The notes under the pieces are model-generated. The model was not told the origin of the DNA, made no database searches, and worked only from the letters and a program-made list of their open reading frames with translations. Positions 58,595 through 63,635 of a stretch of 64,000 nt of DNA are shown here, in pieces. The position numbers were made by a program, and so were the translations under genes. This stretch comes from an uncultured Ulvibacter sp. (lineage in GTDB: Bacteria > Bacteroidota > Bacteroidia > Flavobacteriales > Flavobacteriaceae), in NCBI GenBank assembly GCA_943789105.1, contig CALSSW010000001.1, positions 248,001 through 312,000 on the forward strand, given 5' to 3'. Position 1 is the first letter of the stretch. Each line of letters opens with the position of its first letter.

Positions 58595-59509
58595 ATGCTA
58601 CAATTAAATATCACAAATGAATTTTCAAGGCTTCGAGCTGTTGTTTTAGGGACTGCAAATAGCAATGGACTAACTCCTACTTTACAGCAGGCCTATGACC
58701 CTAAATCTGCTGCGCATATAAAGGCAGGAACTTATCCTACAAACCAAGATATGATTGTTGAGATGGAAGGCGTTGCCGCCGTATTAGACAAGTATGGAGT
58801 AACGGTGTATCGTCCAAGCCAGATTGAAAATTACAACCAGATTTTTTCTAGAGACATTGCTTTTGTGATAGACAACATCTTTATTAAGGCTAATATTTTA
58901 TCAAATAGAGCGCGTGAGATACACGCCCTGCAATATGTAATAGATCAAATACATCCACAAAAGGTAGTAACCTTTCCTGAACAAGTTCATATTGAAGGGG
59001 GTGATGTAATGCCTTACGGAAATTATATATTTGTAGGTACCTATTATGGGGATGACTACTCAAGTTATATTACAGCACGCACTAATATGGCAGCAGTTAC
59101 TGCGTTGCAGGAGTTGTTTCCAAAAAAAATAGTGAAACCTTTTAATTTAAAAAAGTCAAATACAGTGGCAGAGGATAATGCGCTGCATTTAGATTGTTGT
59201 TTTCAACCCCTTGGCCATGGCAGGTGTATTATCCATAAAGAGGGTTTCTTGATAGAAGAAGAATATCAGTGGCTCGTAGACTTTTTTGGCCCAGCTAATT
59301 GTTTCCATATAGATAAACAAGAAATGTATCACATGAATAGTAATATCTTTAGTATTAGTGAAGATGTAATTATTTCAGAAAAAAACTTTACCAGGCTCAA
59401 CTCCTGGCTTTTAGATAAAGGCTATACCGTAGAGCAGGTTGAGTATGCAGAAATTGCAAAGCAAGAAGGCTTGTTGCGCTGCTCCACCATGCCACTTATA
59501 AGAGACTAG
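58595..59509 (+). CDS. Arginine deiminase / dimethylarginine dimethylaminohydrolase family protein
   Basis: This is a 304-residue enzyme of the guanidino-group-modifying superfamily (pentein fold). The catalytic Cys is in GLLRCSTMPLIRD close to the C-terminus; the catalytic His is expected in ALHLDCCFQPLG; acidic residues appear in FSRDIAFVID and HIEGGDVMP. Family reactions hydrolyse arginine, methylarginines or related guanidines to citrulline, or transfer amidino groups. The exact substrate cannot be read from sequence. It is the gene after gltA and converges exactly on the DUF3570 stop. A related CtlX-type hydrolase lies 3 kb further on. Confidence 0.85.
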   Translation: MLQLNITNEFSRLRAVVLGTANSNGLTPTLQQAYDPKSAAHIKAGTYPTNQDMIVEMEGVAAVLDKYGVTVYRPSQIENYNQIFSRDIAFVIDNIFIKANILSNRAREIHALQYVIDQIHPQKVVTFPEQVHIEGGDVMPYGNYIFVGTYYGDDYSSYITARTNMAAVTALQELFPKKIVKPFNLKKSNTVAEDNALHLDCCFQPLGHGRCIIHKEGFLIEEEYQWLVDFFGPANCFHIDKQEMYHMNSNIFSISEDVIISEKNFTRLNSWLLDKGYTVEQVEYAEIAKQEGLLRCSTMPLIRD

Positions 59510-60775
59510 TTAGTCTTGTACAAACTTTAACCCACCAGAGACCATAAAGTAGGACAAAGAACTACTACGGTTGTAATAGCTTGCTTTTGCGTTAATACTT
59601 TTTAAACCATAGCCAAGTAGTTTTACTTTGGTAAAAATATCTGTGTATGATACTCCAAAACCAAACTCACCTGCGTTAAAACTAGATAAATCAAAATCAC
59701 TTGTATAAAATGAATCTGAGGAGAGTGCCTCGTTTGCTTTATAGAAATAATCTGCTTTGCTTTGGGTGTAATATCTATAAGATGGATATAATGTAAAGAA
59801 ATCTCCTAGTTTAATAGGCACCTCTAAACTAGCTGTGTAGGACGTGATGCCCCAATTGTCTTGGTAGTACCTAAGATAAGATCTTAGTACAAACACTTCA
59901 TTTAAATAATAATTTAACCTCCCGCCGATGGCAACTTTAAACCTGCTGCTTGGCAGGCGCTCTATGTCATCAGCAAATCGAAAGTTTCCTATAGTAATAG
60001 GATTAACTATATCTGAAAAATAAATTCTTTGGAATGGTGTAGATAATAAGCCCTCTTGTTGCACCAAATCTAGAGATATTGATCCTTGCGCTTTTTTGGA
60101 GATTATTTGAGAGAAACTAAGCCCAAGAGCGTAGGAGTTTCTTTTATCAGTAGGTAATCCCTTCCGTGCAAGTTCTTCGGGTACATCTTCATTGAAAGAT
60201 TCCCGTATTTCTCCGGGGTAAATTAACTTCCATTGGTCAAAATATACATTTCCGCTAATAGATACTTCAGTGTTTTTTTCATTGAAAAGATGCGTGTAAT
60301 TTCCACCAAAGCCTATCGAGGAATAATCATACTCTTTAGATACAGAAACATTAGCGCCCCATATGTTATTTCTGTCATCGCTACTATGGTTGTATGCTAT
60401 CACACCGTTTACCCATTGATCGCTCCCAGAGGCTCCAGAAGAGGCTAGAAAAGGATCTGCTGCTTGACCTTCAGTGTCAAAAGCATCAACATTACTTGAA
60501 GAGGCAGAGGTGTAGGCGCTTACATTAGCGTCTATTTTTAAAATAGCATCATCATTAAGCGGTATGGATACAACAATGCTGGATGCCAAATCCGTAAGTT
60601 CTTCTGTTCCTATCCCGCCAGTTACCGCTGCGTTATCACCGTCTTGGCTATAATAACTTGCAAGCAAATCAACCTCTACAGATTCTAAGACTCTTTTTTT
60701 ATAGCTAACGATAGTGTCCTGGCTGTATGCCATTAGCGTGGTAAAGCAAAGTATGAGTAAAAGGGTTTTTTTCAA
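59510..60775 (-). CDS. DUF3570 family outer-membrane barrel protein
   Basis: This 421-residue protein has a signal peptide (MKKTLLLILCFTTLMAYSQ) and starts at TTG. Alternating beta-strand sequence to the C-terminus suggests an outer-membrane barrel. The family name is DUF3570; function unknown. Near residues 114-122 is ASSGASGSD, a Ser-Gly-Ala-Ser segment preceded by an Asp five residues before the first Ser of the motif. It loosely resembles ApbE flavinylation targets (Asp..Ser/Thr-Gly-Ala-Thr/Ser). It is the last gene of the thioredoxin-ApbE-DUF4266-DUF3570 operon, 39 bases after DUF4266. Confidence 0.88.
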   Translation of the reverse strand: MKKTLLLILCFTTLMAYSQDTIVSYKKRVLESVEVDLLASYYSQDGDNAAVTGGIGTEELTDLASSIVVSIPLNDDAILKIDANVSAYTSASSSNVDAFDTEGQAADPFLASSGASGSDQWVNGVIAYNHSSDDRNNIWGANVSVSKEYDYSSIGFGGNYTHLFNEKNTEVSISGNVYFDQWKLIYPGEIRESFNEDVPEELARKGLPTDKRNSYALGLSFSQIISKKAQGSISLDLVQQEGLLSTPFQRIYFSDIVNPITIGNFRFADDIERLPSSRFKVAIGGRLNYYLNEVFVLRSYLRYYQDNWGITSYTASLEVPIKLGDFFTLYPSYRYYTQSKADYFYKANEALSSDSFYTSDFDLSSFNAGEFGFGVSYTDIFTKVKLLGYGLKSINAKASYYNRSSSLSYFMVSGGLKFVQD

Positions 60776-60814
60776 GAGTATGATTATTTGTTGTTTATCT
60801 AAATATTTTTTTTG

Positions 60815-61024
60815 TTAGTTGCACCCGCAACCACCGCCAGTTTTTCCTCCATTAGCACCAGAGGCTGCTTCTCTGTAGGCTTGGGCACTTGTTTCAAAAC
60901 GTTTTATAGTTTTATCACCCAAGGCCATATCTGGATCATTGATGTTTACTTTCTCATATTCTTTTACCACAGCGCAAGAAGATAAAAACCCAAGGGCTAT
61001 AAGTAGTATAAGTAGTTTTTTCAT
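60815..61024 (-). CDS. DUF4266 small lipoprotein with Gly/Cys-rich C-terminus
   Basis: This is a 69-residue protein. The chosen ATG at 61024 overlaps the ApbE stop (ATGA), so it is translationally coupled; the longer frame upstream lies inside apbE. The lipoprotein signal peptide has lipobox FLSSC (Cys17). The mature part is short (DMALGDKTIKRFETS, REAASGANGG) and ends TGGGCGCN. The ending with two Cys is the hallmark of DUF4266. Function is unknown; the ending could bind a metal or form a redox pair with the thioredoxin encoded in the same operon. Confidence 0.9.
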   Translation of the reverse strand: MKKLLILLIALGFLSSCAVVKEYEKVNINDPDMALGDKTIKRFETSAQAYREAASGANGGKTGGGCGCN

Positions 61025-62004
61025 TCTTGGGTTTTTAAAGTAAGGTTGTTTGAGGTGATAATAGTACCTGTATCTGTAATGATAATACACTCAATTGTTT
61101 TTAGTTGATTAATTCTGTCTATTCCAGTTTCTACTCCCATTACAAAAACCGAGGTTGCCAAGGCATCTGCTAGCTCTGCCTTTGGAGCAAATACAGTAAC
61201 ACTTATAATTCCTTGGGAAGGATATCCGGTTCTAGGGTCTATAATATGAGAATACCTTCTAGAGTTAAAAGTAACATATTTTTCATAATTTCCACTTGTA
61301 ACTACCGCATCTTTAATGGGTAACATAGCAAAGGCTTTATTTTTGTTAAGAGGGTTGGTAATTGCAACTTGCCATAAGCTCCCGCTTGGTTTACTGCCCC
61401 AGGAGTTGATATCACCAGAGGCATTAATAATACCTCCAGAAACCCCATTTGAAATAAGTAATTTTTTTGCCTTGTCTGCAGCATACCCTTTACCAATGGC
61501 GCCAAAACCAAGTTTCATTCCTTTGTTTTTTAGAAAAACAGTACTGTTTTTAGGGTCCACAACTATATCCTTATAGCCCACCTTTGCTACAGATTTTTTA
61601 ATAGCTTCTTTGGATGGCATTTGGGTCATACTTCCATCATATTTCCATAATCTGTCCATAGATGCATAGGATATATCAAAAGCTCCGTCTGTAAGATCGC
61701 TAATTTGTAGAGCTCTTTGGATAAGGCTAAAAAGTTCCTTAGAAACTTTAACGGGACTCACGCCCGCATTTTTATTAATATTGGATGTTTCTGAGGTAGT
61801 CTTCCAAGAAGAAATTAACGCTTCAATTCTGCTTATTTCAGCGATGGCCATACCAATTTGCTTGTCTGCCTCTAGTTGGGTTTTAGCAACCACAGTGATT
61901 TCAAAATCACTGCCCATAAGGTATGTTTTTTGTTTGTAGATGTTCTGGCTTGTTGCAACAGACAAACAAAAACAAATACATATAAGGCTTAAAAATTTGA
62001 GCAT
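61021..62004 (-). CDS. apbE: FAD:protein FMN transferase (ApbE family)
   Basis: ApbE attaches FMN covalently to Ser/Thr of target proteins outside the cytoplasm. It has 327 residues with a signal peptide (MLKFLSLICICFCLSVATSQ) and the family motifs YLMGSDFEITV, GFGAIGKGYAAD, NASGDINSWG, VVTSGNYEKY, SHIIDPRTGYP and the metal-site ADALATSVFVMG. It follows the thioredoxin gene after 11 bases and overlaps the DUF4266 start. None of the usual targets (NqrB/NqrC, RnfG/RnfD, FMN-bind proteins) is encoded in the window, so the neighbours DUF4266 and DUF3570 are candidate partners. Confidence 0.95.
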   Translation of the reverse strand: MLKFLSLICICFCLSVATSQNIYKQKTYLMGSDFEITVVAKTQLEADKQIGMAIAEISRIEALISSWKTTSETSNINKNAGVSPVKVSKELFSLIQRALQISDLTDGAFDISYASMDRLWKYDGSMTQMPSKEAIKKSVAKVGYKDIVVDPKNSTVFLKNKGMKLGFGAIGKGYAADKAKKLLISNGVSGGIINASGDINSWGSKPSGSLWQVAITNPLNKNKAFAMLPIKDAVVTSGNYEKYVTFNSRRYSHIIDPRTGYPSQGIISVTVFAPKAELADALATSVFVMGVETGIDRINQLKTIECIIITDTGTIITSNNLTLKTQE

Positions 62005-62015
62005 GGTGGTATGAT

Positions 62016-62456
62016 TTACTTAATGAAACCTTCTAGTTCAACAATATACTCTTGAGGGGTTTTTTTGGAATAGCTCGTTTGTCCTAAAACTCGGCCATCT
62101 TTGTTTAATACAACAACAAAAGGAAAAATACCCCCTTTATTATATTGTTCTGCCAAGGCATTGTTGTGGGTTTGTAATTCTGGGCTTAAGGCATTTTTTT
62201 TACGTCTTGGAAAATCTGCTTGTAGCATTATAAAATGATCTTTTGCATAGGTTAAAAAGTGTGCTGTCTCAAATATATCTCTGTTTAATTTAATACACGG
62301 AGCGCACCAGTCGCTCCCTTGAAAGACCAGTAGTATTGTTTTTTCTTGTGCTGCAGACAACTCCTTAGCCTCCTGGAAACTAGTAAGCCATTGTTGGGCA
62401 TGTAGTTGGGTAAAGCCCGCTAGACAAAAAATAAAAAACATTAGATATTTATTCAT
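62016..62456 (-). CDS. Exported thioredoxin-family protein
   Basis: This is a thioredoxin-fold protein of 146 residues from the chosen ATG at 62456 (MNKYLMFFIFCLAGFTQLHAQ signal peptide); the longer frame adds seven residues before the signal. The active site is GSDWCAPCIKL (CxxC), followed by FPFVVVLNKDGRVLG with the cis-Pro. A periplasmic thiol oxidoreductase is expected. It is the first gene of the operon with apbE, DUF4266 and DUF3570, and could act on the Cys of the DUF4266 lipoprotein. That partnership is inferred. Confidence 0.9.
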   Translation of the reverse strand: MNKYLMFFIFCLAGFTQLHAQQWLTSFQEAKELSAAQEKTILLVFQGSDWCAPCIKLNRDIFETAHFLTYAKDHFIMLQADFPRRKKNALSPELQTHNNALAEQYNKGGIFPFVVVLNKDGRVLGQTSYSKKTPQEYIVELEGFIK

Positions 62457-62690: not shown

Positions 62691-63635
62691 ATGAAGCAAA
62701 TTACCAACACCATATTAATGATTCGCCCTGTTGCATTTAGAATGAATGAACAAACCAAGGTGAATAATTATTTTCAAGAAGATCTTGATTTAAAATACTC
62801 AGAAATTAATGCAAAGGCCCAGCAAGAATTTGACACTTTTGTAACAAAACTAAGTGGTGTAGGTGTGGAGGTAATTGTTGAAGACGATATCATGGGTCTG
62901 GACACCCCAGATTCTATTTTCCCAAACAACTGGGTTAGCTTTCATCAAAATGGAACTGTTGCCCTATACCCTATGTTTGCTCAAAACAGACGTCGTGAAA
63001 GACGTGAGGAGATTATCACTAGACTAGAAAAAGAAGGGTTTGTTGTAGAAGGCTTCATGGATTATACCCAGGCAGAGGAGCAAGGATATTTCTTAGAAGG
63101 AACCGGTAGTTTATTATTGGACCGTAAAAACGGGAAGGCATATTGTGCCATCTCCCAGAGAGCCCACGAGGAGCTTATCGTAGAGTTTTGTGAAGATTTT
63201 GAGATGGACCCTGTAATTTTCACGGCAAATCAAACTGTCTATGACCAACGTAAGCCTATTTACCACACCAATGTTATGATGGCCTTGGCTGAGAATTTTG
63301 TGGTTATTTGTCTTGACGCCATTGATGATAAGCATGAAAAGAAACAAGTACTCAAGCATCTCAAAGAAACCAAGAAAGAAGTCATAGCAATTACAGAGGC
63401 TCAGATGCATCAATTTGCAGGAAATATGCTACAGGTCTTGGGAGCAGACAATCAAAAATACATGATCATGAGTGAGGCAGCTCGCTCCAGCCTAAGAAGT
63501 GATCAGGTAAAGGCAATCCAAAAGCATTGTAAAATTTTAAGCAGTGATTTAACAACCATAGAAACCTGTGGTGGAGGAAGCGCTAGGTGTATGATGGCTG
63601 AGGTATTTTTACCTAAGGCCTTGACAAAGGCATAA
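62691..63635 (+). CDS. ctlX: Citrulline utilization hydrolase CtlX-type amidinotransferase-family protein
   Basis: This is a pentein-fold hydrolase of 314 residues from the ATG at 62691 (MKQITNTILMIRPVAF). Family features are PDSIFPNNWVSFH, YFLEGTGSLLLDR, YHTNVMM (catalytic His region) and the C-terminal ETCGGGSARCMMAEVFLP with the nucleophile Cys. CtlX proteins are associated with citrulline or arginine-derived compound use. It lacks close resemblance to the other hydrolase at 58595 outside catalytic blocks, so the two are paralogues of different subfamilies. Confidence 0.9.
   Translation: MKQITNTILMIRPVAFRMNEQTKVNNYFQEDLDLKYSEINAKAQQEFDTFVTKLSGVGVEVIVEDDIMGLDTPDSIFPNNWVSFHQNGTVALYPMFAQNRRRERREEIITRLEKEGFVVEGFMDYTQAEEQGYFLEGTGSLLLDRKNGKAYCAISQRAHEELIVEFCEDFEMDPVIFTANQTVYDQRKPIYHTNVMMALAENFVVICLDAIDDKHEKKQVLKHLKETKKEVIAITEAQMHQFAGNMLQVLGADNQKYMIMSEAARSSLRSDQVKAIQKHCKILSSDLTTIETCGGGSARCMMAEVFLPKALTKA

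Follow-up and report, generated by a model that had tools for sequence, protein, structure and literature searches.

A gene set for a thioredoxin, DUF4266, DUF3570 and ApbE was described by Meheust et al. 2021 (PMC8238504), whose text reports 285 clusters with DsbD, typical members being DUF3570 (227), a PF13899 thioredoxin (183) and DUF4266 (221), and 316 further clusters in which ApbE, DUF3570, thioredoxin and DUF4266 occur without DsbD nearby. According to the same text, the DUF3570 protein of Chlorobium luteolum is flavinylated by its cognate ApbE upon co-expression in E. coli, and flavinylation is abolished only by mutating both of its two [S/T]GA[S/T] motifs. The proposal made there is that DsbD feeds electrons to a hybrid thioredoxin/flavin system in which the CXC of DUF4266 may redox-cycle. 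Here we analyzed a stretch of 64,000 nucleotides, called the window below, from contig CALSSW010000001.1 (positions 248,001 to 312,000) of an uncultured Ulvibacter sp. (GCA_943789105.1). At 59510-62456 of the window, on the minus strand, genes of these four families form a tight operon in the order thioredoxin, ApbE, DUF4266, DUF3570. We concluded that this operon is a Bacteroidota member of the published flavinylation module and not a new system. It shares with the DsbD-type system the clustering of the same four families, the CXC end of DUF4266 and the flavinylation motif of DUF3570, and it resembles the 316 published clusters without nearby DsbD; the DsbD of the window's genome lies outside the operon, unlike that of the DsbD clusters. 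In contrast to the published DUF3570 with its two motifs, the window protein has one strict [ST]GA[ST], its other aligned site being TSAS.

An earlier note on this DNA had described a tight four-gene operon, which the coordinates, the gaps within it (11, -4 and 39 bases) and the Pfam families bear out. It had also called the module uncharacterised; this must be withdrawn, as the module has been in print since 2021 (PMC8238504), and its statement that no known flavinylated partner is near overlooked DUF3570, itself a published ApbE substrate. Since the C. luteolum DUF3570 was, by the published account, flavinylated by its own ApbE (PMC8238504), the note's suggestion that ApbE modifies the barrel holds at the level of the DUF3570 family. 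Among 5.39 million open-access papers, DUF3570, DUF4266 or their Pfam numbers were found in PMC8238504 alone, and the main text of a 2024 paper from the same group (PMC11334425) does not mention DUF3570. A Pfam scan of the four operon proteins (E up to 0.001) gave all four family matches above the cut-off and no FMN_bind domain; as read from the translations, all four proteins have a signal-peptide-like start and none contains a CXXCH haem motif.

The association of the families extends well beyond this genome. Among 247 genomes of the phylum, DUF3570 was found in 71, DUF4266 in 69 and ApbE in 166; all 69 DUF4266 genomes fell within the 71 DUF3570 genomes, of which 69 had ApbE. Two DUF3570 genomes, in assemblies of about 100 (G181) and 290 (G213) contigs, had no ApbE match, and two had no DUF4266 match (G213, G225). 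Outside family f17, which we take to be Chlorobiaceae, the presence of DUF3570, DUF4266 and ApbE agreed in 30/30 genomes. The P-value of this co-occurrence over the 247 genomes, 1e-59, overstates their independence because 41 of the 71 DUF3570 genomes belong to f17 and 15 to the window's own family. Frequent occurrence of DUF3570 and DUF4266 without ApbE had been named beforehand as the test of the link to ApbE, and the survey left that link standing. The module is optional: DUF3570 was present in 7/10 other genomes of the window's genus and in 19/59 near relatives, the window's genome included.

Gene order was likewise conserved. All four families occurred together in 33/40 Bacteroidota regions taken around DUF3570 matches and in 70/80 named loci (largely Flavobacteriaceae), of which 66 had the same plain order, while in the other 4 a gene was split, fused or additional. 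The counts include regions in which one family was missing, some of them truncated where the contig ends (L107, L142, L152). An order conserved to this extent goes beyond chance, and we rejected a chance neighbourhood of the four genes. In a closed f17 genome the order, read from open reading frames, was thioredoxin, DUF4266, DUF3570, ApbE and a DsbD-like gene, and in an f17 cluster (L098) a Pfam-confirmed DsbD adjoins the module genes; the proposed source of electrons can therefore sit within the operon. Within about 10 kb, one region (L099; G201:C45:27000-45000) carried tandem copies: DUF3570 four times and a thioredoxin-DUF4266 pair twice, along with a single apbE.

The motif recognized by ApbE is D-x-x-[S/T]-G-A-[S/T], in which, as summarized in a Journal of Biological Chemistry (JBC) review (PMC12052999), loss of the Asp has a minor effect and a change of Gly to Ala one of about 50%. 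The window DUF3570 carries TSAS (89-92) and SGAS (113-116), so that a strict motif search would count one site only. Residues were counted at aligned columns in 123 DUF3570 proteins, leaving out that of L107, which runs off its contig. At site 1 the acceptor column was Ser/Thr in 123/123, and the preceding position was Ala in 123/123 (Ala91 in the window protein); at site 2 the acceptor was Ser/Thr in 116/123. By group, site 1 read [ST]GAS in 12/12 f17 rows, [STA]SAS in all 28 rows of Bacteroidia, the window's among them, and [ST]SAS, with Ser at the Asp position, in 79/79 rows of the named set. Site 2 was more varied: [ST]GAS in 71/79 and SGES in 8/79 of the named set; [ST]GAS in 10, [ST]SAS in 13 and another sequence in 5 of the Bacteroidia rows; and SGAS at the aligned column in 7/12 f17 rows.

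Seven loci were marked as lacking a local apbE. That the sites go missing together with apbE was considered and rejected: the site-1 acceptor was kept in 7/7, and site 2 was kept in the four Aquimarina loci only, being lost in L085, L093 and L100 and also in L086, a locus with apbE. The Aquimarina loci (L135, L136, L144, L156), which have thioredoxin, DUF4266 and DUF3570, had seemed to be cases of DUF3570-DUF4266 living without ApbE. Three of their genomes were searched (that of L136 was not among them), and each encodes two ApbEs, one of which is of the NQR type by tree; the other shares 75-77% identity with the operon ApbE that matches it best, versus 27-31% with the NQR types. An operon-type ApbE was thus present elsewhere in 3/3 searched genomes, indicating that apbE had moved but was kept, and these loci too leave the expected tie to ApbE intact.

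The ApbE tree comprised 33 operon ApbEs and 9 others, taken from 114, with long rows for L098, L004, L082 and L091. The window's genome has a second ApbE, distinct from that of the operon, encoded downstream of a gene read as NqrF-like, and in the tree this NqrF-associated ApbE and its kin branched apart from the operon ApbEs with support of 100/100, L004 itself being a long branch. Flavinylation of the NQR/RNF kind, with NqrB/NqrC, is also ApbE-based; its substrate and compartment differ from those of the window operon. With a second ApbE present, that of the operon would be free to serve the barrel. A regular-expression count of ApbE motifs (96 and 85 of 114) was too crude and was not used. 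In a Chitinophagales-labelled metagenome-assembled genome (L161:4260-5759), thioredoxin and ApbE are fused in one protein of 500 aa.

The two small proteins of the operon were also strongly conserved in their cysteines. WCxxC was found in 111/112 operon-family thioredoxins under 260 aa, the remaining one having FCLFC, and the nearest solved relative of the window thioredoxin by sequence was 2ju5, a thioredoxin disulfide isomerase. All 120 DUF4266 proteins had CGC near the C-terminus, and 115/120 had GGGCGCN; a strict lipobox was present in 92/120, and most of the other 28 had a near-lipobox such as L-x-S-C. The mature window DUF4266 would have 53 residues. Its structure prediction gave no confident fold (mean predicted local distance difference test (pLDDT) 56.5, with residues 58-69 under 50), a weak hint that the protein may be flexible. 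That the thioredoxin reduces DUF4266, as the earlier note had suggested, comes close to the published proposal and would fit a CGC tail so constant. The window's genome encodes one complete, full-length DsbD, on another contig.

The CGC tail would also suit a module for metal handling, in which it binds Cu, Zn or Fe, thioredoxin keeps it reduced and the flavinylated barrel changes the redox state of a metal for uptake or export; we regard this as possible, though well short of an even chance. VIT1-like genes lay within the region of 8/121 loci by BLAST cluster (by Pfam, in 3/67 directly upstream genes), CusB/HlyD-like genes made up 7/67 of the directly upstream genes (Pfam), and VIT1 is noted in 25 gene clusters of this system in the published text (PMC8238504). 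Such neighbours are nonetheless a minority, 5/7 of the CusB-like loci are labelled Maribacter, and none was found in the window. Either way, WCxxC and ApbE point to redox work.

The window DUF3570 was modelled with AlphaFold2 from 60 sequences, which gave a barrel with mean pLDDT 76.3 and a predicted template modelling score of 0.74. The modelled barrel has 17 strand elements, antiparallel, or 16 strands when 311-318 and 321-323 are counted as one. By sequence no relative of DUF3570 was found in the PDB, and the best structural matches by VIA-align and Foldseek were outer-membrane barrels, for example, by VIA-align, a BamA model (Z 21.5, root-mean-square deviation (rmsd) 3.6, 277 aligned) and 4y25 (Z 20.4, rmsd 3.2, 257 aligned). 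Both lists consist of generic barrels and exclude no family. The turns of the model alternate in length, the even ones having 2-5 residues and the odd ones 3-34; in such barrels the long loops usually face outside. Both candidate sites lie in the modelled loop 90-119, which joins strand 3 to strand 4 and by this rule should face outward; the loop is predicted with low confidence and could fold into the lumen. Higher conservation of loops than of strands overall was rejected, as mean identity to the window protein was 0.44 for both in the 28 Bacteroidia rows; conservation in the loops was confined to single loop motifs.

The generic character of these matches would be expected if DUF3570 were an ordinary porin, flavinylated for something other than electron transfer, with thioredoxin and DUF4266 serving its folding or quality control. 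DUF3570 barrels, however, contain few or no cysteines (the only one of the window protein is Cys10, in the signal stretch), so that thiol help would have little to act on, and both the conserved acceptor position and the fact that a dedicated ApbE has been retained speak for a functional flavin. We therefore consider an ordinary porin very improbable.

The thioredoxin and the cysteine-tipped lipoprotein probably supply the flavinylated barrel with electrons. In the reading that we favor and judge to be rather likely, the published module operates with electrons passing from DsbD through thioredoxin and DUF4266 to the barrel flavins and an outer acceptor. Periplasmic ApbE would move flavin mononucleotide (FMN) from flavin adenine dinucleotide to Ser116, and probably to Ser92, before DUF3570 enters the outer membrane. 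Electrons would leave the cytoplasm via the full-length DsbD, whose gene lies elsewhere in the genome, and reach the operon thioredoxin (CAPC); this would hand them to the DUF4266 CGC tail, which would reduce the barrel flavins, and these in turn an acceptor located at the outer membrane or beyond it. We offer the route over that membrane, its direction and its final acceptor as a hypothesis. The favored reading draws on the published flavinylation of a homologue and on the gene order, co-occurrence, acceptor positions, CGC tail and presence of DsbD observed here; the barrel fold and loop position that it uses are predicted.

Several points weigh against this reading. DsbD is absent from the window cluster, and no electron-transfer measurement for any module member was found in the literature. 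Site 2 was not Ser/Thr in 7/123 aligned proteins; site 1 of the marine Flavobacteriaceae rows (SAYTSAS in the window) lacks both the Asp and the Gly of the motif, and site 2 of the window protein lacks the Asp. The loop bearing the sites was modelled with low pLDDT (55-58), and the sites, if facing outward as modelled, would give electrons from DUF4266 no evident way across the membrane.

Electrons could also run the other way, the barrel flavins oxidizing a donor in the outer membrane or beyond it and passing electrons inward to thioredoxin. Members of f17, presumably Chlorobiaceae, use extracellular sulfur donors, and f17 often has several DUF3570 copies, both of which would suit such a flow. 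Reversal is allowed in principle for flavinylation systems by the published text (PMC8238504). DsbD, which is found in some of the same clusters, normally exports electrons, and we think inward flow improbable.

Porin-cytochrome conduits of the MtrCAB type use a beta-barrel to carry electrons past the outer membrane. The window module would be like them only if it, too, were an outer-membrane conduit, and would differ in having no CXXCH, a covalent FMN cofactor and a thiol donor in place of the cytochrome. In such a haem-free thiol-to-flavin conduit, which we put forward as an unlikely version, the cysteine tip of DUF4266 would enter the 16-stranded barrel's lumen and reduce two covalently bound FMNs on the extracellular-side loop 90-119, the flavins would reduce ferric iron or another external acceptor, and in some Bacteroidota a Rieske protein, encoded first in the operon, would add a one-electron carrier. 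Were flavins indeed placed on the outer side of a thiol-fed barrel, bacteria would have a cytochrome-free way of getting electrons past the outer membrane. This idea can be tested, given the conserved sites, the constant CGC tail, a dedicated ApbE that has been retained and the neighbouring Rieske gene.

In 20/121 loci, drawn from three families of at least two orders, a Rieske [2Fe-2S] gene immediately precedes the operon in the same orientation; 16 of the gaps were 6-33 bases, three were 110-130 and one was an overlap. The main text of PMC8238504 does not contain the word Rieske, and, among the papers listed by a literature search and judged by title and abstract opening, none joined Rieske with a flavinylated outer-membrane barrel and ApbE. 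A search of the window's own genome (83% complete, no positive control) gave no Rieske match and carries no weight. The positions of the operon features and the Rieske-headed loci are listed in Table 1.

Table 1. Features of the operon in window coordinates, and loci headed by a Rieske gene
Feature	Position	Strand	Details
Thioredoxin-like exported protein, first gene	62016..62456	-	146 aa; PF13899, E 2.3e-14
Thioredoxin active site CAPC (Cys51, Cys54; WCAPC)	62295..62306	-	read from sequence
ApbE, FAD:protein FMN transferase	61021..62004	-	327 aa; PF02424, E 5.9e-85
DUF4266 lipoprotein	60815..61024	-	69 aa; PF14086, E 1.2e-19; overlaps apbE by 4 bases
DUF4266 lipobox-like Cys17	60974-60976	-	read from sequence
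DUF4266 C-terminal Cys66-Gly67-Cys68 in glycine-rich tail (ends GGGCGCN)	60821..60829	-	read from sequence
DUF3570 outer-membrane beta-barrel	59510..60775	-	421 aa; PF12094, E 2e-32; TTG start
DUF3570 candidate flavinylation site 1, T89-S90-A91-S92, putative acceptor Ser92	60500..60511	-	aligned column; serine replaces glycine
DUF3570 candidate flavinylation site 2, S113-G114-A115-S116, putative acceptor Ser116	60428..60439	-	sole strict [ST]GA[ST] in the protein
Rieske-headed loci			L070, L071, L076, L082, L084, L087, L090, L159, L160, L164, L167, L168, L172, L176, L177, L179-L183

The operon is flanked by genes resembling those of guanidino-modifying enzymes, at 58595-59509 and 62694-63635, encoding an arginine-deiminase-like protein and a CtlX citrulline hydrolase. 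Both are on the plus strand, so that the four operon genes form an isolated unit. The sigma-70 consensus does not fit the promoter type of Bacteroidota, and a sigma-70 scan was therefore not used. Response-regulator and Crp-type genes were other repeated neighbours of the operon; in the 64-kb window there was no Rieske, VIT1-like, CusB/HlyD-like, response-regulator or Crp-type neighbour. At L117, L123, L128, L137, L139, L153 and L155, five of which carry the Maribacter label, a gene for a CusB/CzcB-like membrane-fusion protein lies 40-175 bases upstream on the same strand. At L067, L068, L071 and L076 a gene of the response-regulator cluster comes immediately after DUF3570, in the same orientation (gap -13 to 28), and the next gene looks like one for a histidine kinase.

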